A stretch of 64,000 bases of DNA from Bradyrhizobium sp. CB1015 (GTDB lineage Bacteria > Pseudomonadota > Alphaproteobacteria > Rhizobiales > Xanthobacteraceae), in contig NZ_CP104174.1 of the NCBI RefSeq assembly GCF_025200925.1, positions 6,572,001-6,636,000 on the forward strand. The letters run 5' to 3'. A program made the translations under genes and the position numbers. Below are positions 45,719-63,441 of the stretch, one piece after another. The notes below the pieces were generated by a model. That model was given only the letters and a program-made list of their open reading frames with translations. It ran no database searches and had not been told where the DNA came from. The first letter of the stretch is position 1; every line of letters begins with the position of its first letter.

Positions 45719-46588
45719 CTAGAAATTCACGCCGAACACCAATCGCGCCTGATGCCGCTCGAAATTGACGAGGTCGAGATTGCCGCCTGTGCCGGCCGGG
45801 CGCCCCCAGGCCTGCATGCTCCAGCTCATGGTGAGCCGGGAACGCTCGGAGAGCTGGAAATAGGCGGTGGGGCCGACGAACAGGGCCTGGCCTGCGAACT
45901 CGCCGAGGCCGATGCCTTCATATTGCCGGAAGTAGCGCGCCTCGCCGCCGAGCAGCACATTGGGGCGCACCCGCACCAAGCCGGCGAACGCGGCGCCGAT
46001 CGTCGAGCTCTTCTCGGATGCCCCTCCGATCTCGAAGCGCGCCCATTCCGGCTGGTAGATCAGGTTGAGGGCGCCGATGGCGAAGTTCGGGATGAGTTCG
46101 CGGTCGAAGGCGAGCGTGAATTCGGTGCCGTACATCCGCCCTTTCGCGCCGCTGGTCTCGTCGATGCGGTCGCCGTGGAGCTCGGCCGCAACCGTGAGGC
46201 CGAATGGCGCGCGCTCGCGGTCGAGCAGGCGATAGCGCAGGTCGAGCGAGGCGCCCTGGAAGTTGAACTGGCGGCGATCGTCGATATCAGGGACGCCGGT
46301 GATGTCGTGCAAGCTGGCGGTGCCGCCGACCTCGATACGAAAATTCGGCAGCGGCACCACCTCGATCTCGAGCTCCTGCGCGAGGGCGCGATAGGCCACC
46401 CCGCCTTTGCCGAAGCGCCCCGTCGTCTGGCTCTGGAATTCGCGCTCGCCGACATTGCCGACATCGGTGCCGATCATGAAGCCGAAGATGTGCTCGGTAT
46501 CAAAGCCTGCCTCGGCGCTGGTGCGTGCCGGCGCCAGCACGATCGCGCACACGATCACCGTCCAGAACTTGCAGGCTCTGCCGTCCAT
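45719..46588 (-). CDS. Predicted outer-membrane beta-barrel protein
   Basis: A 289-residue protein. Signal peptide MDGRACKFWTVIVCAIVLAPARTSA, then GFDTEHIFGFMIGTDVGNVGEREF. The rest alternates polar and aromatic residues (FNFQGASLDLRYRLLDRERAPFGLTVAAELHG, FAIGALNLIYQPEWARFEIGG) and ends LVFGVNF, with the terminal Phe of outer-membrane barrels. Start chosen at the ATG with GGGGCACGGG upstream. It lies downstream of the orphan pqqA on the same strand, within the lanthanide island, so it could be an outer-membrane component of the same system; that is inference. Confidence 0.7.
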   Translation of the reverse strand: MDGRACKFWTVIVCAIVLAPARTSAEAGFDTEHIFGFMIGTDVGNVGEREFQSQTTGRFGKGGVAYRALAQELEIEVVPLPNFRIEVGGTASLHDITGVPDIDDRRQFNFQGASLDLRYRLLDRERAPFGLTVAAELHGDRIDETSGAKGRMYGTEFTLAFDRELIPNFAIGALNLIYQPEWARFEIGGASEKSSTIGAAFAGLVRVRPNVLLGGEARYFRQYEGIGLGEFAGQALFVGPTAYFQLSERSRLTMSWSMQAWGRPAGTGGNLDLVNFERHQARLVFGVNF

Positions 46589-46814
46589 CCCGTGCCCCAA
46601 AGGCGCGCCGCTGTGATGCGGCAGCAGCGCTGACCGAGCACCAGCGTAACACACTGCCGCAGAGCACGGTCGAGATTTTGCGGGAGAGAATTGAAGCCCC
46701 TCCACGTGCGGCTTTTGCGCCGATCCGCAAAGCATGGAGCACGGCGAGGCGGAGATCCGACACTGCCACGGCTCCGACGGCGTTCGCCATCGAAGCCGCG
46801 GCAGGTCATTAGTC

Positions 46815-47112: not shown

Positions 47113-47442
47113 TCAGCAGCCCTTGTCGGCCATTTCCGCATTCTGCTTGGCGCCTTCGGCACGCTGAGCCGCCGTCGGCTCGCTCTGCATTTGCCGCTGT
47201 GCATCCTCCGACGATGCCGGCGATTCACCGCTGGCACGGTTCATCGTGCTGGTCGGCGGATGCTGGCTGGTATCGCTCGCTGAACCGGACCCGTGCGATT
47301 GTGCGGAGCCCACGGTAACCGGACCAGAACCCGCATCCTTGTCGGTGCTGGCGCTGCCGGTGTTGCACGGACCGGCAACCGCAATCCCGGCGCTCAGCGT
47401 CAGGATTGCGCAGGCAGCAAGAAGGGAACGCTTCGTGTTCAT
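47113..47442 (-). CDS. Exported low-complexity protein
   Basis: A 109-residue protein with signal peptide (MNTKRSLLAACAILTLSAGIAVAG), then PCNTGSASTDKDAGSGPVTVGS and a Ser/Gly/Gln/Ala-rich body ending in EGAKQNAEMADKGC. Cys at both ends of the mature part might pair. GGAG seven bases upstream of the second ATG supports that start. No domain recognised. It follows lanM on the same strand with a gap of about 140 bases and could belong to the same response. Confidence 0.6.
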   Translation of the reverse strand: MNTKRSLLAACAILTLSAGIAVAGPCNTGSASTDKDAGSGPVTVGSAQSHGSGSASDTSQHPPTSTMNRASGESPASSEDAQRQMQSEPTAAQRAEGAKQNAEMADKGC

Positions 47443-47583: not shown

Positions 47584-47976
47584 TCACCGGAGCAATCGCA
47601 CGAGCGCGCGACCGGCGCGCGAGTTCAGCTCCTTCGCATCCAGCGTTCCGTCCTTGTCAGGATTGGCTGCGTTGAAGCGCTGCTCGACCACCGACAGATA
47701 TTCGTCGAGTGTGAGGGTCCCGTCGCGGTCGGGATCGGCAGCGGCGAGCTCTTTCGCCGTCAACCGTCCGCGCAATTCGCGCGCATCGAGCGTGCCGTCG
47801 CGATCGGGATCCAGCTTTGCGAACGCGGCGGCGGCGGCCTTCTTCACCTCGGCGAGATCGAGCGTGCCGTCATTGTCGGTATCGAACAACTTGACCGAAT
47901 TGGCGGAGGCCGACCACGCCGGACCGGCCGACAGTGCAATCATGAGTGCAAGGGCAATTGAGCGAGCCGAAATCAT
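47584..47976 (-). CDS. lanM: Lanmodulin (lanthanide-binding EF-hand protein)
   Basis: A 130-residue periplasmic protein: signal to about residue 23 (AWSA), then four EF-hand loops, D32-E43 (DTDNDGTLDLAE), D56-E67 (DPDRDGTLDARE), D81-E92 (DPDRDGTLTLDE) and N105-E116 (NPDKDGTLDAKE). Loops 2-4 carry Pro at position 2 and the loops are only 12-13 residues apart; both are hallmarks of lanmodulin, unlike calmodulin (about 24). Loop 4 begins with Asn, as in Methylorubrum LanM. Deviations: loop 1 has Thr at position 2, loop 3 has Thr at position 9. It is divergent from a PQQ dehydrogenase. GGGAGG precedes the ATG. Family members bind lanthanides with picomolar affinity. Confidence 0.9.
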   Translation of the reverse strand: MISARSIALALMIALSAGPAWSASANSVKLFDTDNDGTLDLAEVKKAAAAAFAKLDPDRDGTLDARELRGRLTAKELAAADPDRDGTLTLDEYLSVVEQRFNAANPDKDGTLDAKELNSRAGRALVRLLR

Positions 47977-48296
47977 CGAGACCTCCCTGACGTAGCGCCC
48001 CAGGATCGATGGGGCAGAGCCGACATAAACCCGCAAGCGGACCTCGGTTCAAGTCCGGACCTGCAACTTGCGCGCGCCACAACCGGTGGAGATGCATTGA
48101 CCAGCTCCCGATAGTGCTTCGCGTCGCGGAATTTCTCAGCGTCTGCGCACAAGTTGCAGTTGCCTTTGTCAGGTTTCCGTCAGGTGACCGCCGACGATAT
48201 CGGCACGGCAGTTACGACTTTCGTATTGACGCGTTTTGGTTTCCGACGGAGTGTTGCAGTCGCAGCGTCAAAAGGCGCGCATATTGGGAGGAACGG
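47977..48296. promoter_or_regulatory. Divergent region between lanM and the PQQ dehydrogenase
   Basis: About 320 bases that must hold both promoters, a likely place for lanthanide-responsive control. I can point to TTGACGCG at 48225-48232 as a possible -35 for the dehydrogenase, but no matching -10 is certain. The first 60 bases are GC-rich and overlap no gene. Confidence 0.45.
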
Positions 48297-49961
48297 ATGA
48301 AACGCTTTGCGATGGCCGCGAGCCTCGTCATGCTTGCGTCAACCTGTGCAAATGCACAAACCACCGAGCAGCTGGTCAAGGGTGTGACCGACACGTCGAA
48401 CGTTCTCAATTATGGAATGGGCTACAATCTCCAGCGCTTCTCGACGCTGAAGCAGATCAATAAGGACACCGTCAAGAACCTCGTCCCGGTCTGGAACTAT
48501 TCATTCAACGACGATCGCAGCGAGGAATCGCAGCCGCTGGTGTACCAGGGCGTGATCTACGTGACCTCGCACAACGCGACCATGGCGGTCGACGCCAAGA
48601 CCGGCAAGCAGATCTGGAAGAGCAAGATCGAATATCCGGCGGAGACGCCGCGGATCGTCTGCTGCGGCATCATCAACCGCGGCGTCGCGATTCACGAGGG
48701 CAAGCTGTTCCGTACGACCCTCGATGCCCACGTGATTGCCATCGACGCCAAGAACGGCAAGGAGCTGTGGCGGCAGAAAGCGGCCGACATCAAGGAAGGC
48801 TATTCGATGACGGTGGCCCCGCTCGTTGCCGACGGCGTCGTCATCACCGGCATCTCCGGTGCCGAATTCGGCACAAGGGGCTTCATCGACGGCTGGGATC
48901 CGGCAACGGGCAAGCATCTCTGGCGCACCCATTCGATCCCCTCGCCGGACGAGCCCGGCGGCGACACCTGGAAGGGCGACACCTGGAAGCTCGGCGGCGG
49001 CTCGACCTGGATCACCGGGTCTTATGATCCCGAGCTAAACACGATCTATTGGGGCATCGGCAATCCCGGCCCGTTCAACTCGGCAGTGCGCCCCGGCGAC
49101 AATCTCTACACCTGCTCCGTCCTGGCGCTGGATCCCAAGACCGGTAAGATCAAGTGGCACTACCAGTTCTCGCCGAACAACCCGTTCGACTACGACGCCG
49201 TGGCCGAGATGGTGCTCGCCGACGTGAACATCGACGGCAAGCCGACCAAGACGCTGATGAATGCCAACCGCAACGGCTTCTTCTACGTGCTCGACCGCAC
49301 CAACGGGAAGCTGCTCGCGGCCAATCCTTACGTGAAGGTGAATTGGGCGACCGGCATCGACATGAAGACCGGACGTCCGATCGAGACCGACGTTTCCAAG
49401 GACGCGCGCGAGGGCAAGAAGGTCACGGTCTATCCGTCGATCCTCGGCGGCAAGAACTGGGAGCCGATGTCGTTCAATCCACAGACCGGCCTTGCCTATG
49501 CCAACACGCTCAATTTCGGCGGCAAGTACAAGGCGGAGCCCGTCACCTTCAAGCAGGGTGAATGGTATCTCGGCATGGACCTGACCGATCCCTGGCAGTT
49601 CGACGATGGTCCGCGCGGCTACCTCAAGGCCATCGACCCCATGACCGGCAAGGCCAAGTGGGAGGCGCCGAGCGACATTCCGCGCTTCTCGGGGGTGCTG
49701 TCGACGGCCGGGGGCGTCGTGTTCTCGGGTCAGCTGACCGGCGAGTTCGAAGCCTTCGACGCCGACACCGGCAAGAAGCTCTGGCAGTTCCAGACCGGGT
49801 CCGGCATCGAGGGTCAGCCGGTGACCTGGCAGCAGGACGGCGTGCAATACGTCGCGGTGACGAGCGGCTATGGCGGCGTCTACTCGTTGTTCTCCGGCGA
49901 CGAGCGGCTTGCCAGTGTGCCGCCCGGCGGCTCGCTGTGGGTCTTTGCGGTCAAGCAGTAA
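48297..49961 (+). CDS. PQQ-dependent alcohol dehydrogenase, lanthanide type (ExaF/PedH-like class)
   Basis: A 554-residue periplasmic quinoprotein. Signal AASLVMLASTCANAQ; eight-bladed propeller with W-docking repeats (KTGKQIWKSK, KNGKELWRQK, KTGKIKWHYQ). The vicinal disulfide is Cys122-Cys123 (RIVCCGIINRG). Metal residues by alignment: Glu190, Asn256 (GNPGP), Asp298 and the extra Asp300 in PFDYDAV, which marks lanthanide rather than calcium use. Length and GNPGPFN fit the ethanol/alcohol group rather than XoxF. It heads an operon with a cytochrome c and a XoxJ-like binding protein. GGGAGG precedes the ATG. Substrate could be ethanol, other alcohols or aldehydes. Confidence 0.9.
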   Translation: MKRFAMAASLVMLASTCANAQTTEQLVKGVTDTSNVLNYGMGYNLQRFSTLKQINKDTVKNLVPVWNYSFNDDRSEESQPLVYQGVIYVTSHNATMAVDAKTGKQIWKSKIEYPAETPRIVCCGIINRGVAIHEGKLFRTTLDAHVIAIDAKNGKELWRQKAADIKEGYSMTVAPLVADGVVITGISGAEFGTRGFIDGWDPATGKHLWRTHSIPSPDEPGGDTWKGDTWKLGGGSTWITGSYDPELNTIYWGIGNPGPFNSAVRPGDNLYTCSVLALDPKTGKIKWHYQFSPNNPFDYDAVAEMVLADVNIDGKPTKTLMNANRNGFFYVLDRTNGKLLAANPYVKVNWATGIDMKTGRPIETDVSKDAREGKKVTVYPSILGGKNWEPMSFNPQTGLAYANTLNFGGKYKAEPVTFKQGEWYLGMDLTDPWQFDDGPRGYLKAIDPMTGKAKWEAPSDIPRFSGVLSTAGGVVFSGQLTGEFEAFDADTGKKLWQFQTGSGIEGQPVTWQQDGVQYVAVTSGYGGVYSLFSGDERLASVPPGGSLWVFAVKQ

Positions 49962-49971
49962 CCACGGCACG

Positions 49972-50328
49972 ATGCTGATAGACGTATCACACAAGACGGT
50001 GGCGACGATCGCCACCGTCGCGGTGCTGACGGTTGCGCTTGCGGCGACCGTTCGCGCCGCGGATGACGCAACCGGCAATCCACTGCAGGCGCAGATCGAC
50101 CACGGCAAGTCGACCTATGCCGAGAAATGCTCACACTGCCACGGCCCCAACCTGATGAACTCCGGCACCATCACGCCGGACCTGCGCGTCTTCCCCGACG
50201 ACAAGACGCGCTTCGTCACCACGGTCAAGAACGGCAAGAACAACAAGATGCCGCCCTGGGGCGACATCCTCAGCGACGACGAGATCGGCAACCTCTGGGC
50301 CTTCGTCTCCAGCCGGAGAAAGCCATGA
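49972..50328 (+). CDS. c-type cytochrome of the PQQ dehydrogenase operon
   Basis: A 118-residue cytochrome with signal (TVATIATVAVLTVALAATVRAA) and one haem site, CSHCH at Cys53-His57. A likely Met ligand lies in NNKMPPWGDILSDDEIGNLWAF. It would take electrons from the dehydrogenase just upstream. Its stop overlaps the next start (ATGA). Similar cytochromes (c550, PedF/ExaB-type) accompany ethanol quinoproteins. The ribosome binding site is weak, so translation may depend on the upstream gene, ten bases away. Confidence 0.88.
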   Translation: MLIDVSHKTVATIATVAVLTVALAATVRAADDATGNPLQAQIDHGKSTYAEKCSHCHGPNLMNSGTITPDLRVFPDDKTRFVTTVKNGKNNKMPPWGDILSDDEIGNLWAFVSSRRKP

Positions 50329-51254
50329 GAGGCCGGCGCGTTGCCTGGAGCGTTGCGGCCTTTCTGTCCACGATGGCGTCGGTTGCTCTCGCGGCCGACG
50401 ATCCCTTGAAGGTCTGTCTCGACGAGGACCGGCCGCCGCTTTCGGTGCATCATCGCGGCAAGCCGGATGCTGGATTCGACGTGCTGCTGGCGCAGGCGAT
50501 CGCCGATCGGCTGGGACGCCCGCTTAAAATCCAGTGGTTCGAGAGCAAGCTGGACGAGGATTCGAGCCCGCAGCTCGAGGCCAATGCGCTGCTCTCGGAC
50601 GGGCGCTGCTCGCTGGTCGGCGGCTACGCGCTGACGCAGGATTCGCTCGTCGCACCCGGGATGAAGACGGCGCGCTTGCCGGACTTCGCCGACGCCACGC
50701 GCGACGATCGGCGGCGCCGCGTCCCGCTCGGCGTGCTCGCCCCGAGCCAGCCCTACATCTATTCGCCGATGACGGTGGTGCTGGGACCGAGGGCGCAGCG
50801 GCGCAACATCGGCGACATCGGCGATCTCGCCGGCCTTCGTCTCGCCATTGAAAGCGGCTCGCTCGGCGACGCCATCCTGATGACCTTCGACAAGGGCCGC
50901 CTGATCGACAATATCACGCACCTCGTCCCCGGCCGCGACGATCTCCTCGGCGCGCTCGAGCGCGGCGACCATGACGCGACGTTGATCGACCTTGCCCGCT
51001 TCGACGCCCATCGCGCCGCGCACCCGGACACGGCGATCACCGCGTCCGGCTACTATTACCCGATCGGAGCCAATCGCGGCTATGTCGGGCTCGCCAGCGA
51101 TGGCGCGCTGATCGAGGCCGTCAACAAGGCGCTGACGGAGCTGACGGCTTCTGGCAGGATCGCCGAATTCGGCAAGCAGGCCGGCCTCACCTATCTGCCG
51201 CCGCGCGAGCCCGCGATCCTCGGCGATGTCTGGACGAAGATCATCCAGCGGTAG
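50325..51254 (+). CDS. XoxJ-like family-3 solute-binding protein
   Basis: A 309-residue periplasmic protein (signal VAWSVAAFLSTMASVALAA). Family-3 binding fold: PLKVCLDEDRPPLSVHHRGKPDAGFDVLLAQAIADRLGRPLKIQWFE, then RCSLVGGYALTQDSLVAPG. The order dehydrogenase-cytochrome c-binding protein is that of xoxFGJ and mxaFJG, so its job is probably to help the dehydrogenase rather than import an amino acid. No permease follows. It overlaps the cytochrome gene by four bases. Confidence 0.85.
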   Translation: MRGRRVAWSVAAFLSTMASVALAADDPLKVCLDEDRPPLSVHHRGKPDAGFDVLLAQAIADRLGRPLKIQWFESKLDEDSSPQLEANALLSDGRCSLVGGYALTQDSLVAPGMKTARLPDFADATRDDRRRRVPLGVLAPSQPYIYSPMTVVLGPRAQRRNIGDIGDLAGLRLAIESGSLGDAILMTFDKGRLIDNITHLVPGRDDLLGALERGDHDATLIDLARFDAHRAAHPDTAITASGYYYPIGANRGYVGLASDGALIEAVNKALTELTASGRIAEFGKQAGLTYLPPREPAILGDVWTKIIQR

Positions 51255-54389: not shown

Positions 54390-55358
54390 CTAATGCTCGC
54401 CCGAGCTCGCCGCGCCCTGCTGGGCCTTGTGGATCGAGGACGGCACCACGCCGAAGTATTTTCGGAACACCCGGCTGAAATGCGATGAGCTGGAGAACCC
54501 CCAGGAGAAGGCGACGTCGGTGATGGTCTTGCCGGCGTGGGCCTCGAGCTCCTGGCGGCAGTTCTGCAGCCGCGCCTGCCAGATGTAGTCGCTGACCGTG
54601 GTGCCGCGCTCCGAGAACAGCATGTGCAGATAGCGCTTGGAGCAGCCGAGCTCGGCCGAGATCTGGTCGATGCACAGATCCGGGTCGCGCAAGTGCTCGC
54701 GGATGAAGAATTGCGCGCGCACATACATCGCTTCGGGCCCGACACGATCGAACATCGTGTCGGCCTCGCGCAGCGGCAGCAGCAACAGGTCGATCAGCGA
54801 ATCGGCGACGCCGACTGCGCTGTTGGCCGACAGCTTTGCCGCCTCGTCGAAGGCGGCATGGACGAAATCGTGGGCGATCCGCCCGGTCCCCGTCTTCGCG
54901 GTCAATTTGCAGGCCGGCATCCGCTGCGACGGGAATCCGCGGTCGCGCAGCAGCGCCTTCGGCACGATCACCACGTCATGACGGGTAAAGGCGGGACTGA
55001 TGATCGAATGCGGACAGGAGACGTCATAGGCGATGATGTCGCCGGGGTTGATCTCGATGTGCCGGCCTTCTTGTTCGAAATAGGACACGCCGTAGGTCTG
55101 GAAGTGAATCTTTATGTACGGGTGTTCATTGGCCTTGGCACGCGCCAGCGTGTGCGCGATGCGATGCTGGCTGACCTCGATCTGGCAGAGCTTCAGGCGC
55201 GAGACCGTGGTGTAATCGATGCGACCTTCGAGCGAGGACGCCTCCAGCGGATCGACGTCGAAATGCCCGCACAGGCTCGTCAGCCCGTCGATCCAGCTCT
55301 GGATCTGCCGCTTCGGCGTCATCCCGGTCGTCGAGAGCGTGTGAATGGTGTCGGACAT
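54390..55358 (-). CDS. AraC-family regulator divergent from xoxF
   Basis: A 322-residue regulator. The N-terminal half (KLCQIEVSQHRIAHTLARAKANEHPYIKIHFQTYGVSYFEQEGRHIEINPGDIIAYD) is the AraC-binding-2/cupin sensor. The C-terminal AraC domain is CIDQISAELGCSKRYLHMLFSERGTTVSDYIWQARLQNCRQEL and ITDVAFSWGFSSSSHFSRVFRKYFGVVPS. Such NIT1/FeaR-like regulators often control alcohol or aldehyde dehydrogenase genes. It faces away from xoxF, 512 bases off, and is the obvious candidate to control it. ATG at 55358 is preferred over one 15 codons upstream because MSDTIHTL is the usual beginning. Confidence 0.88.
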   Translation of the reverse strand: MSDTIHTLSTTGMTPKRQIQSWIDGLTSLCGHFDVDPLEASSLEGRIDYTTVSRLKLCQIEVSQHRIAHTLARAKANEHPYIKIHFQTYGVSYFEQEGRHIEINPGDIIAYDVSCPHSIISPAFTRHDVVIVPKALLRDRGFPSQRMPACKLTAKTGTGRIAHDFVHAAFDEAAKLSANSAVGVADSLIDLLLLPLREADTMFDRVGPEAMYVRAQFFIREHLRDPDLCIDQISAELGCSKRYLHMLFSERGTTVSDYIWQARLQNCRQELEAHAGKTITDVAFSWGFSSSSHFSRVFRKYFGVVPSSIHKAQQGAASSGEH

Positions 55359-55870
55359 TAATCCAGCCACTGATTTGATCCGGAGATTCGGCGCGAATCG
55401 CAACCAGCGCTGCCGGAGCCCTCAGCCGTGATTGCGTGACGTTTACCTCGCATTTGAGCGGTCCCTTGCAACGAGCGCCATCGTTCCATTGCCACTCTTG
55501 AAACTTAATCCTCCGCCTTAGTTGCAGCGCCGTCAAGGGGAACCTGAGCGCAGCGGCGGCCTCAAGGGCTCACCGAAGCCGCTGAATTCGCTACTGCAAA
55601 ATCAAAATCTTCACCTCCGTGCGCTGTCGAGCAAACCGCCTTCTCTCTTGGGCAAGTTTCCCGCTGACGAAGCCGTTAGGGATTGCGGCAGGAACAACAA
55701 GAACGGGCCGCTCCTGCACGTGGACCCGTGGCTCTCATCAGGAGGAGGAAACAGCACAGCATCGTTTCTGGTCCCAACGTGACCGCCCTGCACGAGCAGA
55801 CGCCGGACGAGAAGCCCGGTGATTCAGCAATGCTTCGGAAACAATAAACGAGACCAACGGAGGAATAACT
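55359..55870. promoter_or_regulatory. Long divergent control region upstream of xoxF
   Basis: About 510 bases between the AraC gene and xoxF. The only convincing signal is the ribosome binding site GGAGGAATAACT just before the xoxF ATG. A long 5' leader is likely. Open frames here lack domain or start support. Operators for the AraC protein and the two-component system could both fit in. Confidence 0.5.
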
Positions 55871-57676
55871 ATGCGCAAGGTGCTACTGGCGACCTATCTC
55901 GGCTCCGCGGCGGCTCTCGCCGTCGGCAGCGCCTCAGCCAATGACGAGCTGATCAAGATGTCGCAGAACCCGAAGGACTGGGTGATGCCGGCGGGCGACT
56001 ATGGCAACACCCGCTATTCCAAGCTGAACCAGATCAACGCCCAGAACGTCGGCAAGCTTCAGGTCGCTTGGACGTTCTCGACCGGCGTGCTGCGCGGCCA
56101 TGAAGGCGGCCCGCTGATCATCGGCAACGTCATGTACGTCCACACGCCGTTCCCGAACAAGGTCTACGCCATTGACCTTTCCAACGAGAACAAGATCATC
56201 TGGAAGTACGAGCCGAAGCAGGATCCGAACGTCATCCCCGTGATGTGCTGCGACACCGTCAACCGCGGCCTGTCCTACGGCGACGGCAAGATCATCCTGC
56301 ATCAGGCCGACACCAACCTCGTCGCACTCGACGCCAAGACCGGCCAGGTGGCCTGGTCGGCAACCAACGGCAATCCTGCGAAGGGCGAGACCGGCACGTC
56401 GGCCGCGCTTGTCGTCAAGGACAAGGTCCTGGTCGGCATCTCCGGCGGCGAGTTCGGCGTGCAGTGCCACGTCACCGCATACGACCTCAAGAGCGGCAAG
56501 CAGGTCTGGCGCGCCTATTCCGAAGGTCCCGATGATCAGATCAAGCTCGATCCCGTCAAGACCACGTCGCTCGGCAAGCCGGTCGGGCCCGACTCGTCGC
56601 TGAAGACCTGGCAAGGCGATCAGTGGAAGATCGGCGGCGGCTGTACCTGGGGCTGGATCTCCTACGATCCCGCTTTGAACCTCGTCTATTACGGCTCGGG
56701 CAACCCCTCGACCTGGAATCCGAAGCAGCGTCCGGGCGACAACAAATGGTCGATGACCATCTTCGCGCGCGATGCGGACTCCGGCATGGCCAAGTGGGTC
56801 TACCAGATGACGCCCCACGACGAGTGGGACTATGACGGCGTCAACGAAATGATCCTCACCGATCAGCAGATCAACGGTCAGAACCGCAAGCTGCTGACGC
56901 ACTTCGACCGCAACGGGCTCGCCTACACCATGGACCGCGAGAGCGGCGAATTGCTGGTCGCCGAGAAGTACGACCCGAAGGTGAACTGGACCAGCGGCGT
57001 CGACATGGACAAGAACTCGCCGACCTACGGCCGTCCCAAGGTCGTCGCTCAATATTCGACCGAGCACGGCGGAGAGGACAAGAACACGAAGGGCATCTGC
57101 CCGGCCGCGCTCGGCACCAAGGACGAGCAGCCGGCGGCCTACTCGCCGGACACGCAGCTGTTCTACGTTCCGACCAACCACGTCTGCATGGACTACGAAC
57201 CGTTCAAGGTGAGCTACACCGCGGGTCAGCCCTATGTGGGTGCGACGCTCTCGATGTATCCGCCGCAGGGTGAAAGCCACATGGGCAACTTCATCGCCTG
57301 GGACGGCAAGACCGGCAAGATCGTCTGGTCGAACAAGGAGCAGTTCTCGGTCTGGTCGGGTGCGCTCGCAACCGCCGGCGGCGTGGTGTTCTACGGCACG
57401 CTCGAAGGCTACCTGAAGGCGGTCGACGCCAAGTCCGGCAAGGAGCTCTACAAGTTCAAGACTCCCTCCGGCATCATCGGCAACGTCACCACCTATGAGA
57501 ACAACGGCAAGCAGTACGTTGCCGTGCTCTCCGGCGTGGGTGGCTGGGCCGGCATCGGTCTGGCGGCAGGTCTGACCGATCCGACCGCAGGCCTCGGTGC
57601 AGTCGGCGGCTACGCGGCCCTCAGCAATTACACGGCGCTCGGCGGTACGCTGACCGTGTTCTCGCTGCCGAACTGA
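55871..57676 (+). CDS. xoxF: Lanthanide-dependent methanol dehydrogenase XoxF
   Basis: A 601-residue periplasmic PQQ dehydrogenase (signal ending ASAND at about residue 23). Vicinal disulfide Cys126-Cys127 in [11 protein letters not shown]. Metal residues by family alignment: Glu194 (GGEFGVQ), Asn278 (GSGNPSTWN), Asp320 and the extra Asp322 in [12 protein letters not shown]; the extra Asp defines the lanthanide form and replaces Ala of MxaF. It oxidises methanol to formaldehyde or further to formate and passes electrons to the cytochrome encoded next. Excellent ribosome binding site (GGAGGAATAAC). The C-terminus [27 protein letters not shown] is typical of XoxF5. Confidence 0.96.
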
Positions 57677-57734: not shown

Positions 57735-58280
57735 ATGCCGGCCGAGGGGAAGAAGCTCTTGCGTAAAATCTGCTTTGTCATTGCTGCGACGATCTTGGTT
57801 GCGTCCGGAGGAATTGCGGTCGCGGAGGGTCCGGGCGACCCGGCCGCCGTGAAGAAGGAAGAGGACGGAAAGTGGCTCGATAAGGAGGGAAATCCCACCT
57901 ACAAGATTTCGGCCGACGGCACCGTGGACTGGTTCACCTATTCCGGATACCGCCGCTATCACTCGGACTGCCACGTGTGCCACGGCCCCGACGGCATGGG
58001 ATCGACCTACGCACCGGCGCTGAAGGATTCCGTCAGGTCGATGAGCTACGGCGACTTCCTCGGCGTGGTCGCCTCTGGCCGCAAGAACATCTCGACCGCG
58101 CAGGAGAACGTCATGCCGGCCTTCGGCGACAACCCGAACGTCGCCTGCTACATGGACGACCTCTATGTCTATCTCCGCGCGCGCTCAACCGAAGCCTGGG
58201 GCCGGCAGCGTCCTGCGAAAAAAGAGGAGAAGACTGAGGCCTACACCAAGGCTGAAGACGCCTGCATGGGCAAGAAATGA
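57735..58280 (+). CDS. xoxG: Methanol-metabolism c-type cytochrome (XoxG type)
   Basis: A 181-residue cytochrome. Signal region KICFVIAATILVASGGIAVA; single haem motif CHVCH at Cys79-His83 in YRRYHSDCHVCHGPDGMGSTYAPALKDS; likely Met ligand in ENVMPAFGDNPNV. The long N-terminal segment before the haem (KWLDKEGNPTYKISADGTVDWFTYSGYRRYH) is characteristic of the methanol-metabolism cytochrome family. It accepts electrons from XoxF. Position directly after xoxF supports this. ATG at 57735; a TTG at 57759 with a better placed AGGGGAAG is a credible alternative. Confidence 0.92.
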   Translation: MPAEGKKLLRKICFVIAATILVASGGIAVAEGPGDPAAVKKEEDGKWLDKEGNPTYKISADGTVDWFTYSGYRRYHSDCHVCHGPDGMGSTYAPALKDSVRSMSYGDFLGVVASGRKNISTAQENVMPAFGDNPNVACYMDDLYVYLRARSTEAWGRQRPAKKEEKTEAYTKAEDACMGKK

Positions 58281-58340: not shown

Positions 58341-59450
<1,110 letters not shown>

Positions 59451-59481
59451 CTCGAAAACGTCACACCAAGGAGGATCGACC

Positions 59482-60045
59482 ATGACTGTTGCACTCCATC
59501 CCTCGATCGACAGCGGCATCAAGCAAGGCAGCGGCAACTTCGCCGGCGGCACGCTGGTCTGCAAATGCAGCGACCACCCGGTGAAGGTCGGCATCAAGGG
59601 CGACGTCGCCCACAATCATGCCTGCGGCTGCACCAAGTGCTGGAAGCCGCAAGGCGCGCTCTTCTCCGTCGTCGCCGTGGTGCCGCGCCAGAACGTCACC
59701 GTGCTCGAGAACGGCGACAAGCTCCAGATCGTCGATCCCTCGGCGGTGATCCAGCGCTACGCCTGCAGGGCCTGCGGCACGCACATGTACGGCCGGATCG
59801 AGAACAAGAACCATCCGTTCTATGGCCTCGATTTCATCCATCCCGAATTGTTCCAGGAGCAGGGCTCGCAGGCGCCGCAATTCGCCGCCTTCGTCTCCTC
59901 CGTGATCGAATCGGGTGTGAAGCCAGAGCAGATGGCCGGCATCCGTGCGCGGCTGAAGGAGATCGGCCTCGAGCCCTATGACTGCCTGTCGCCGGCGCTG
60001 ATGGACGCGATCGCGACCCATGTGGCGAAGGCCAAAGCTGCCTGA
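59482..60045 (+). CDS. gfa: S-(hydroxymethyl)glutathione synthase (Gfa)
   Basis: A 187-residue GFA-fold zinc protein: [42 protein letters not shown] and [30 protein letters not shown] provide the CxC, CxxC and CxxCGTH zinc residues. It speeds the reaction of glutathione with formaldehyde, as in Paracoccus. GGAGGATCGACC precedes the ATG. It is the last gene of the xoxF-xoxG-flhA-gfa unit, before a strong terminator. Confidence 0.95.
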
Positions 60046-60674: not shown

Positions 60675-61127
60675 ATGATCAAGGTGAAGATCAACGGCCA
60701 GGAACAGAGCTGGGACGGTGACCCGGATCTCCCGCTACTCTGGTTCCTGCGTGACGAGGCCGGACTGACCGGCACCAAATACGGCTGCGGTCAGGCCCTG
60801 TGCGGCGCCTGCACGGTCATCGTCGACAAGCAAGCGGTGCGCGCCTGCATCACGTCGGTCAACGACGTCGCCGGACGCGAGGTCACCACGATCGAGGGGC
60901 TGCATCCGAATGGCGATCACCCGGTGCAGAAGGCGTGGCGCCAGGTCAACGTGCCCCAATGCGGCTTCTGCCAGGCCGGCCAGATCATGCAGGCCGCGGC
61001 GCTTCTGATGGACAACCCGAAGCCCTCGCATGACCAGATCCGCGAGGCGATGTCCGGCAACATCTGCCGTTGCGGCTGCTACCAGCGCATCGAGAACGCC
61101 GTCCATCTCGCATCGACGGGGGTGTGA
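60675..61127 (+). CDS. (2Fe-2S) subunit of a molybdenum hydroxylase (IorA type)
   Basis: A 150-residue iron-sulfur protein. The plant-type cluster uses Cys38, 43, 46 and 58 ([23 protein letters not shown]), the second cluster Cys96, 99, 131 and 133 ([10 protein letters not shown] and [12 protein letters not shown]). This two-cluster small subunit is shared by isoquinoline 1-oxidoreductase and aldehyde dehydrogenases of the xanthine oxidase family. It is followed one base later by the molybdenum subunit. It would pass electrons from the molybdenum site to a cytochrome or quinone. Confidence 0.94.
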
Positions 61128-61128
61128 C

Positions 61129-63441
61129 ATGAATTTCATCGACAATCCCCGCAAGCTGCGCGGCTTCGAAAAGCACATCAAGGTCGAGAAGGTGTCGCGC
61201 CGCAGCATCCTGAAGGGGCTCGGCGTCACCGGCGGCTTCGTGCTCGCTGCCCCCGTGATGTCGCGCCAGGCGCTCGCCTATGAGACCGGCGCCGGAAAAA
61301 TGCCACACGGCGTCGTGGTCGATCCGCGCGTGTTCGTTTCGGTAGGCGCGGATGGCATCGTCACCATCGTCGGGCACCGTTCGGAAATGGGCACCGGCGT
61401 GCGCACCAGCCTGCCGCTGATAGTGGCCGAGGAGATGGAGGCCGATTGGTCCAGGGTCAAGGTGCAGCAGGCTCATGGCGATGAGGTGAAGTTCGGCAAC
61501 CAGGACACCGACGGCTCGCGCAGCACGCGGCACTATCTGATCCCGATGCGCCAGATCGGCGCCTCCGCCCGCACCATGCTGGAGCAGGCCGCAGCCAAGC
61601 GCTGGGGCGTGCCGGCGACCGAGGTCAAGGCGGTCAACCACGAGGTCGTCCACAGCGCCAGCGGCCGCAAGCTCGGCTTCGGCGAGCTGGCCGCGGACGC
61701 CGCCAAGGAATCGGTGCCGAGCATCGAAAGCCTCAAGCTGAAGGACCCCCGGGATTTCCGCTATCTCGGCAAGGGTCAGGTCGGCATCGTCGATCTCCAC
61801 GACATCACCACCGGCAAGGCGCGCTATGGAGCCGACGTGCGGCTGCCGGGCATGAAATATGCCGTGATCGCCCGCCCACCGGTGACCGGTGGCAAGCTGG
61901 TCAAGTTCGAGCCGGAAGCGGCACTGAAGATCCCCGGCGTCGAGAAGGTGATGCAGGTGCGCGGTTGGCCATGGCCATCGAAGTTCCAGCCGCTCGGCGG
62001 CGTCGCGGTGATCGCGCGCAACACCGGCGCGGCGATCAAGGGCCGCGACGCCTTGAAGCTGGTCTGGGATGACGGGCCCAACGGCAAATACGACTCGGTC
62101 GCCTACCGCAAGGAGCTCGAGGAAGCCTCGCGCAAGCCGGGCCTCGTGCTGCGCAAGGAGGGTGATGCGGACGCTGCCTTGAAGAGCGCCGACAAGGTGA
62201 TCGTCGGCGAGTACTACATTCCGCACCTCGCCCATGTCGCCATGGAGCCGCCGGTGGCGGTTGCCGACGTCAAGGGCGACAAGGCGGAGATCTGGGCGCC
62301 GGTGCAGAGTCCCGGCGGCACCCGCGAGGACGTCGCCAAGACGCTCGGCATTCCCGAGGCCAACGTCACGGTCGACGTGACGCTGCTCGGCGGCGGGTTC
62401 GGACGCAAGTCGAAATGCGACTTTGCGCTCGAAGCCGCGCTGCTCTCGAAAGAGCTCGGCGCGCCGGTGAAGGTGCAGTGGACGCGGGAGGACGACATCC
62501 ACAACGGCTTCCTGCACACCGTCTCGGTCGAGCGGATCGAGGCCGGCCTCGACAAGAGCGGCAAGGTGATCGCCTGGCGCCACCGCAGCGTGGCTCCCAG
62601 CATCGCCTCGACCTTTGCCGCCGGAACGGTGCATCAGGCGCCGTTCGAGATCGGCATGGGCCTTGTCGACATGCCGTTCGAGATCGCGAACATCTCTTGT
62701 GAGAATCCGGAAGCGGCCGCGCACACCCGCATCGGCTGGTTCCGTTCGGTCTCGAACATCCCGCGCGCCTTTGCCGTCCAGTCGATGGTCGGCGAGATCG
62801 CGCAGGCGACCGGCCGCGACCAGAAGGACATGCTGCTCGAGCTGATCGGCTCGCCTCGCATCGTCAAGCCCAACGTGAAGGACCTCTGGAATTACGGCGA
62901 GCCCCAGGACAGCTACCCGATCGATACCGCGCGGCTGCGCAAGGTGGTCGAGCTGGTCGCCGAGAAGGGTGAATGGGGACGGAAGGTGCCTAAGGGCCAC
63001 GGTCTCGGCATCGCCGTGCACCGCAGCTTCGTCAGCTACATCGCGACCATCGTCGAGGTCGCCGTCGACGACAAGGGCAAGCTGACGGTGCCGCGGGTCG
63101 ACACCGCGATCGATTGCGGTACCTATGTCAACCCCGAGCGCATCGCTTCGCAGATCGAGGGCGCGGCGATCATGGGGCTGAGCCTTGCCAAATACGGCGA
63201 GATCACCTTCAAGGACGGCAAGGTGCAGCAGAAGAATTTTGACGACTTCCAGGTCGTCAGGATCGACGAATCGCCTGCGGTGACCAACGTCTATATTGTG
63301 CCGCCCGGACCCGACACGCCGCCGAGCGGCGTCGGCGAGCCCGGTGTTCCCCCGTTCGCGCCGGCCCTGATCAACGCGATCTTCGCGGCGACGGGAAAAC
63401 GCATCCGCTCGCTTCCGATCGGCAAGCAATTGGAGGCGTGA
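61129..63441 (+). CDS. Molybdopterin-binding subunit of a molybdenum hydroxylase (IorB/aldehyde dehydrogenase type)
   Basis: A 770-residue protein with a twin-arginine signal ([21 protein letters not shown]), so the enzyme is probably periplasmic or bound to the outer face of the membrane. Molybdopterin-binding landmarks: [77 protein letters not shown] and the catalytic Glu in [20 protein letters not shown]. The family hydroxylates N-heterocycles or oxidises aldehydes. The usual third subunit, a cytochrome c, is absent here. A position just after a formaldehyde operon makes an aldehyde substrate attractive but not proven. Confidence 0.92.

Follow-up and report, generated by a model that had tools for sequence, protein, structure and literature searches.

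A lanmodulin usually encoded back to back with a PedH-like PQQ dehydrogenase in Bradyrhizobium

The stretch of 64,000 nucleotides analysed here (the window) belongs to a genome assembled as a single contig of 8.41 Mb. On its minus strand, an open reading frame (ORF) of 130 codons encodes a putative lanmodulin (LanM). The start of this gene lies 320 bases from that of a PQQ-dependent dehydrogenase gene on the plus strand (48297-49961), and the two genes diverge. A sequence-only reading of this DNA had described the divergence without naming a strand. The features of lanM, the intergenic region and the dehydrogenase cassette are as follows:

47584..47976, minus strand: lanM, encoding a 130-residue lanmodulin precursor (ATG at 47976, stop codon at 47584-47586; from the ORF, NCBIfam and the PDB)
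47908..47976, minus strand: probable Sec signal peptide covering roughly the first 23 residues (end judged by eye)
47848..47883, minus strand: EF loop 1, DTDNDGTLDLAE, residues 32-43, with Thr33 at position 2
47776..47811, minus strand: EF loop 2, DPDRDGTLDARE, residues 56-67
47701..47736, minus strand: EF loop 3, DPDRDGTLTLDE, residues 81-92, with Thr89 at position 9
47629..47664, minus strand: EF loop 4, NPDKDGTLDAKE, residues 105-116
47977..48296, no strand: intergenic region of 320 bases between the divergent starts, with conserved blocks
48297..49961, plus strand: PQQ-dependent alcohol dehydrogenase, 554 residues (ATG at 48297 chosen within a longer ORF)
49975..50328, plus strand: c-type cytochrome, candidate electron acceptor of the dehydrogenase (Pfam Cytochrome_CBB3; start uncertain)
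50352..51254, plus strand: periplasmic binding protein, family 3 (Pfam SBP_bac_3; start uncertain)

The N-terminus of LanM is hydrophobic and ends in small residues, as judged by eye, and the protein is probably secreted. The EF loops start at residues 32, 56, 81, and 105, so the linkers between them are 12, 13, and 12 residues long. Pro occupies position 2 of loops 2, 3, and 4, and the residues at positions 1 and 9 of EF1, EF2, and EF3 are D1/D9, D1/D9, and D1/T9, respectively. The translated ORF thus agrees with the four loops, the spacing of 12-13 residues and the three prolines reported earlier, and it contains both of the residues then singled out, Thr33 in loop 1 and Thr89 in loop 3. Beyond lanM on the same strand, two ORFs (45719-46735 and 47113-47442) match no Pfam model over its cut-off; homologues at 60% or more were found in 65 and 27, respectively, of 80 named Bradyrhizobium loci, one of which is titled Frankia and one just Bradyrhizobiaceae.

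The protein was compared with family profiles and solved structures. It scored 178.4 bits (E = 6e-53) against the LanM equivalog of NCBIfam (NF053806.1, cut-off 135), and 4088 homologues were found at E ≤ 0.001; the ORF is therefore not a product of chance. Solved structures of 13 distinct sequences matched it, and the four best are lanmodulins (E from 7e-34 to 8e-23): 6mi5 (E = 7.1e-34) and 8fns, both Mex-LanM, 8dq2, which is Hans-LanM of Hansschlegelia quercus, and 9pi2, a lanthanum-bound protein of Ancylobacter. The PDB listing gives 8fns and 8dq2 as EF-hand protein, and a legend in PMC11845868 names them as lanmodulin. Behind the lanmodulins ranked a designed protein (E = 6e-9), then centrin (E = 7e-5) and calmodulin (best E = 2e-4). 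The hallmarks given with a set of 696 sequences in PMC10232371 are found as well, namely four EF loops in fewer than 200 residues (here 130) and 12-13 residues between neighbouring loops (here 12/13/12); so is the hallmark of Pro at position 2 in at least one loop, seen in loops 2-4. On the grounds of profile score, loop spacing and comparison with solved structures, we agree with the earlier assignment to the lanmodulins. By its sequence, the protein is a canonical lanmodulin, a typical representative of an established family of rare-earth-binding proteins, here from a root-nodule bacterium. The expectation that routine annotation would call it an EF-hand protein was borne out: named records in the homologue search mostly read 'calcium-binding' or 'EF-hand', although the NCBIfam equivalog now recognises the protein.

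Compared with Mex-LanM (6mi5/8fns), the window LanM aligns without gaps from residue 28 to the last and shares the four loops and the distances between them, with Pro as the second residue of loops 2-4 and Asn as the first residue of loop 4. It differs in having Thr for Pro at position 2 of EF1 and Thr for Asp at position 9 of EF3. The gene setting differs too, since lanM of Methylorubrum extorquens lies in the lut cluster (PMC7391723), whereas the window gene stands beside a PQQ dehydrogenase gene. Hans-LanM (8dq2) also aligns without gaps, with its four loops in the same register. However, the hallmark of its cluster, Asn at position 1 together with Glu at position 9 in EF1-3 (PMC10232371), is absent from the window LanM, which has Asp at position 1 and Asp, Asp, and Thr at position 9, and the two proteins fall into different groups in the tree. 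In LanM of Methylobacterium aquaticum 22A, the second residue of loop 1 is Thr, as in the window protein, but that of loop 2 is Lys, and the gene neighbours are different (PMC9260416).

The tree included the window LanM, all 29 loci of the order sample, 15 loci out of the 110 in the genus and named sets, three PDB segments, and 19 of 20 fetched regions; L161 gave no match, and the row of L002 (wrong frame, E = 0.13) was excluded. The window LanM lies within starred sets of Bradyrhizobium LanMs with support of 98/95 (20 rows) and 100/98 (21 rows), and support is only 85/68 for the branch uniting the 26 LanM rows of the genus. Judged by lanM, the window is nearest, among named organisms, to Bradyrhizobium glycinis (97%) and to B. 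yuanmingense (95-96%). The host genome carries one LanM above the family cut-off, its second match being far below at 28 bits. Four other genomes of the genus (G166, G175, G060, and G177) each carry two LanM genes above it.

The residues at the two altered loop positions were then surveyed across relatives. Among the 120 closest of the 4088 homologues, 115 could be parsed into four loops (5 could not); of these, 104 have Thr and 11 have Ser at position 9 of EF3, and position 2 of EF1 is occupied by Thr (93), Ser (12), Pro (5), or another residue (5). The named loci gave Thr in 79/80 and Ser in 1/80 at the former position, and Thr in 73/80, Pro in 6/80, and Ser in 1/80 at the latter. All 30 best-scoring loci of the genus sample have Thr at position 9 of EF3, while position 2 of EF1 varies inside the genus, 23 of them having Pro and 7 Thr. 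The order sample consists of 9 Bradyrhizobium and 20 other loci, read by eye. Here the EF3 residue is Thr in 9/9 Bradyrhizobium rows and Asp in 16, Thr in 2, Asn in 1, and Glu in 1 of the others, and Thr at position 2 of EF1 occurs in 9/9 and 4/20, respectively. These counts are not independent, because the samples share taxa and the 30 and 80 loci were picked by score. Thr33 and Thr89 had been pointed out as changes in this protein; that they are peculiar to it is ruled out, as both are common among lanmodulins of the genus. Since L136, a locus from another genus of the same family, and most non-Bradyrhizobium rows of the order sample have Asp at position 9 of EF3, the Thr most simply arose in the Bradyrhizobium line.

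Published structures bear on what these residues may do, including the possible shift in affinity or selectivity that had been suggested. The Asp at position 9 of Mex-LanM hydrogen-bonds solvent (a bound water) and not the metal, whereas Glu9 of Hans-LanM binds the metal (PMC10232371). Compared with Asp, Thr89 places one carboxylate fewer near EF3. Because the residue of Mex-LanM contacts water and not metal, the EF3 site of the window protein would be somewhat weakened or retuned by Thr89, not lost. Thr33 at position 2 of loop 1 should have little effect, and a recombinant LanM of M. aquaticum with Thr at this position still changes shape on La (PMC9260416).

The neighbouring dehydrogenase scored 708 bits against TIGR03075 (cut-off 480). 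Its best solved relative is 6zcv, a quinoprotein ethanol dehydrogenase that we take to be PedH of Pseudomonas putida, with residues 6-552 aligned. The motif F-D-Y-D (Asp298-Tyr-Asp300) aligns with W-D-F-D in 6zcv and W-D-F-S in 1flg, presumably a lanthanide-dependent and a calcium-dependent enzyme, respectively. The hallmark second Asp, two residues past the catalytic Asp, is thus present in the neighbour and shared with 6zcv. The neighbour differs from 6zcv in a shorter loop near its own residue 216 and in the cytochrome and binding-protein genes downstream. The same Asp-x-Asp pattern is tabulated for the metal ligands Asp299 and Asp301 of XoxF (PMC11845868). The neighbour therefore looks like a rare-earth-dependent, PedH-like enzyme. 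The cytochrome encoded next is its probable electron acceptor, and a cytochrome homologue on the strand of the dehydrogenase was found in 74/80 named loci (presence and strand were scored, not adjacency). The binding protein has a homologue in 73/80. Its gene sits where, as we assume, MxaJ/XoxJ-like proteins stand; its six solved matches are amino-acid-type binding proteins, and no solved XoxJ is among its PDB matches at E ≤ 0.1.

Further along the window lie genes for methanol and formaldehyde metabolism:

54390..55403, minus strand: AraC-family regulator, divergent from xoxF (homologue in 70/80 named loci)
55871..57676, plus strand: xoxF-type methanol dehydrogenase, 601 residues, with W-D-Y-D (TIGR03075, 776 bits)
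57735..58280, plus strand: methanol-metabolism c-type cytochrome (TIGR03874, 272.8 bits, cut-off 161.75)
58341..59450, plus strand: S-(hydroxymethyl)glutathione dehydrogenase (TIGR02818, 616.6 bits, cut-off 543.95)
59368..60045, plus strand: S-(hydroxymethyl)glutathione synthase, Gfa (TIGR02820, 345.5 bits, cut-off 234.55)

The label XoxF for 55871..57676 rests on length, motif and neighbours, and the true start of Gfa is probably downstream of 59368. XoxF as the immediate partner of lanM was ruled out, because the adjoining enzyme most resembles, among solved structures, an ethanol dehydrogenase, and xoxF begins about 6 kb past the end of its gene. The host genome contains seven TIGR03075 matches, five of them over the cut-off, and Asp-x-Asp stands at the expected place in six of the seven (pattern scan, read by eye). 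One of these six, a further PQQ dehydrogenase over this cut-off with Asp-Trp-Asp, is encoded just past the window end (G000:C1:6636089-6637618, minus strand). Downstream of the formaldehyde genes, 60675-63441 encodes a [2Fe-2S] protein and a molybdopterin-binding large subunit of the xanthine/aldehyde dehydrogenase type.

The pairing of lanM and the dehydrogenase gene is widely conserved. A divergent dehydrogenase gene with at least 89.9% identity lies 317 to 760 bases from lanM in 74/80 named loci. Among the remaining six, the contig of L056 extends 604 bases on the dehydrogenase side with no match therein, and L110 matched none of the nine neighbours sought. In the other four (L097, L107, L112, and L117), lanM stands near xoxF and the AraC gene, and no homologue of the cassette of dehydrogenase, cytochrome and binding protein was found at these loci, which suggests gain or loss of the cassette there.

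In a genus sample of 195 genomes, host genome included, 148 carry lanM over the cut-off and 147 carry the dehydrogenase (E ≤ 1e-200). A four-way table was made from the matches listed. Its lanM entries come from 150 matches in 146 genomes, and its dehydrogenase entries cover 146 of the 147 genomes, the rows of G032 and G190 (57% and 56%) being left out. Among the matches listed, 133 genomes have both genes, 13 lanM only, 13 the dehydrogenase only, and 36 neither; a few genomes are misplaced in this count, because the lanM entries number 146 against a tally of 148. The lanM genomes outside the table are likely G069 and G146; the lanM match of G152 is weaker. On the same matches, 13/146 lanM genomes have no dehydrogenase of at least 80% identity, and 13/146 dehydrogenase genomes are without lanM. 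The co-occurrence gives a Fisher p of 1e-17, a value that ignores shared ancestry and is not a true probability. For 116 of the 133 genomes with both genes, again among the matches listed, the divergent arrangement is seen with the two no more than 1.2 kb apart. In 11 of the other 17 they lie on one contig, in one case divergent at 2.6 kb; in these 11 the absence or loosening of the pairing is real, since no assembly gap separates genes on a single contig. In Bradyrhizobium, lanM thus usually stands back to back with the PedH-like dehydrogenase gene.

The intergenic region was aligned for the window and 67 named loci. Seven of the 80 loci were excluded (two without a dehydrogenase match, four with matches of 36-37% only, and one with an unaligned lanM start), as were 6 of the resulting 74 sequences (73 loci and the window) that are at least 400 bases long. 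Several blocks are near-invariant in this alignment, the longest lying within the final 80 bases ahead of the dehydrogenase gene. Part of this conservation probably reflects a promoter and a ribosome-binding site. Inverted copies of a heptamer, TTGACGC at 48226-48232 and GCGTCAA at 48265-48271, were seen by eye about 39 bases apart. They fall within the best-conserved stretch upstream of the dehydrogenase gene and are a possible regulator site. A conserved block of 21 bases has no second copy in the 64-kb window with up to 3 mismatches allowed; as it occurs only at its own place, a site shared with the xoxF promoter is not supported.

Lanmodulins of Bradyrhizobium are already published. One has been described from a single genome, not co-localised with XoxF (PMC10875860), and 15 plasmid-borne LanMs from the genus have been reported (PMC12482762). 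A xoxF region with formaldehyde genes is known from two Bradyrhizobium strains, with three 'xoxF homologs' in one and two in the other (PMC12628762). We infer that this region is the same island as that of the window; the words lanmodulin, LanM, and EF-hand are absent from the available part of that text. For the pairing of lanM with a PedH-like dehydrogenase gene, we found no published statement in the searched portions of the open literature.

We consider it very probable that the gene encodes the Bradyrhizobium form of lanmodulin, which would be exported to the periplasm, would fold upon binding lanthanide ions, and would buffer lanthanides or pass them to the PQQ dehydrogenases encoded alongside. 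Its most likely function would be to buffer lanthanides in the periplasm or to carry them to the PQQ dehydrogenases of this methanol/formaldehyde oxidation island. The shuttle role is not established, since deletion of lanM in M. aquaticum 22A caused no methanol growth defect (PMC9260416). In a transposon screen of M. extorquens AM1, lanM was not among the hits (PMC7391723).

A more specific proposal is that lanM and the PedH-like gene form a dedicated two-gene module under one regulatory region, in which Thr at position 9 of EF3 would help to release lanthanide to the partner and LanM would serve as a client-specific metallochaperone; we regard this as unlikely. We also doubt that, throughout the genus, EF3 has lost strong lanthanide binding so that two strong sites remain, an adaptation by which LanM would donate metal to the neighbouring dehydrogenase. 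The divergent pairing would suit such a loss, as would the residue at position 9, which is Thr or Ser in all 115 parsed sequences (among the 120 closest of 4088), 80/80 named loci and 30/30 genus loci, against Asp in 16/20 non-Bradyrhizobium rows of the order sample, L136 included. However, Hans-LanM and Mex-LanM differ at this position and are both picomolar binders (PMC10232371), so that position 9 alone need not abolish binding, and Thr or Ser is also kept in the dehydrogenase-less loci L097, L107, L112, and L117.

It is distinctly improbable that LanM acts as a lanthanide sensor or regulator of the adjoining operon instead of a chaperone, even though both genes share the 320-base region with its conserved blocks and lanM expression is lanthanide-responsive in another genus (PMC10848612). 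The protein is small, its Pfam matches over the cut-off are all to generic EF-hand models, with no DNA-binding domain, and the conserved blocks may be just promoters. Clade tests on 109 columns with seven ordinary EF-hand proteins, whose attachment the tree does not fix, did not separate lanmodulins from such proteins: holding all lanmodulins together gave a p-AU of 0.486, and holding the window LanM with the seven gave 0.288, which is not rejected. A calcium EF-hand protein (calerythrin-like) that only resembles lanmodulin would accord with this last value, with the generic Pfam matches and with Thr at position 9, which also occurs in calcium EF-hands, but it is hardly credible given the equivalog score over the cut-off, the rank of lanmodulins far above calmodulin in the PDB search, the short linkers of 12/13/12 residues, and the place of the window LanM within the starred Bradyrhizobium sets.

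For the Bradyrhizobium form of lanmodulin, the protein itself is no surprise, and the divergent pairing is the part of the finding most worth following. The genus-wide Thr at position 9 of EF3 is a natural experiment on a position tied to bound water in published structures. If the two-gene module were real, lanmodulin would be a client-specific metallochaperone and not a general buffer. Against the background of the deletion without a methanol growth defect (PMC9260416) and the screen without a lanM hit (PMC7391723), the pairing offers a concrete client to test.
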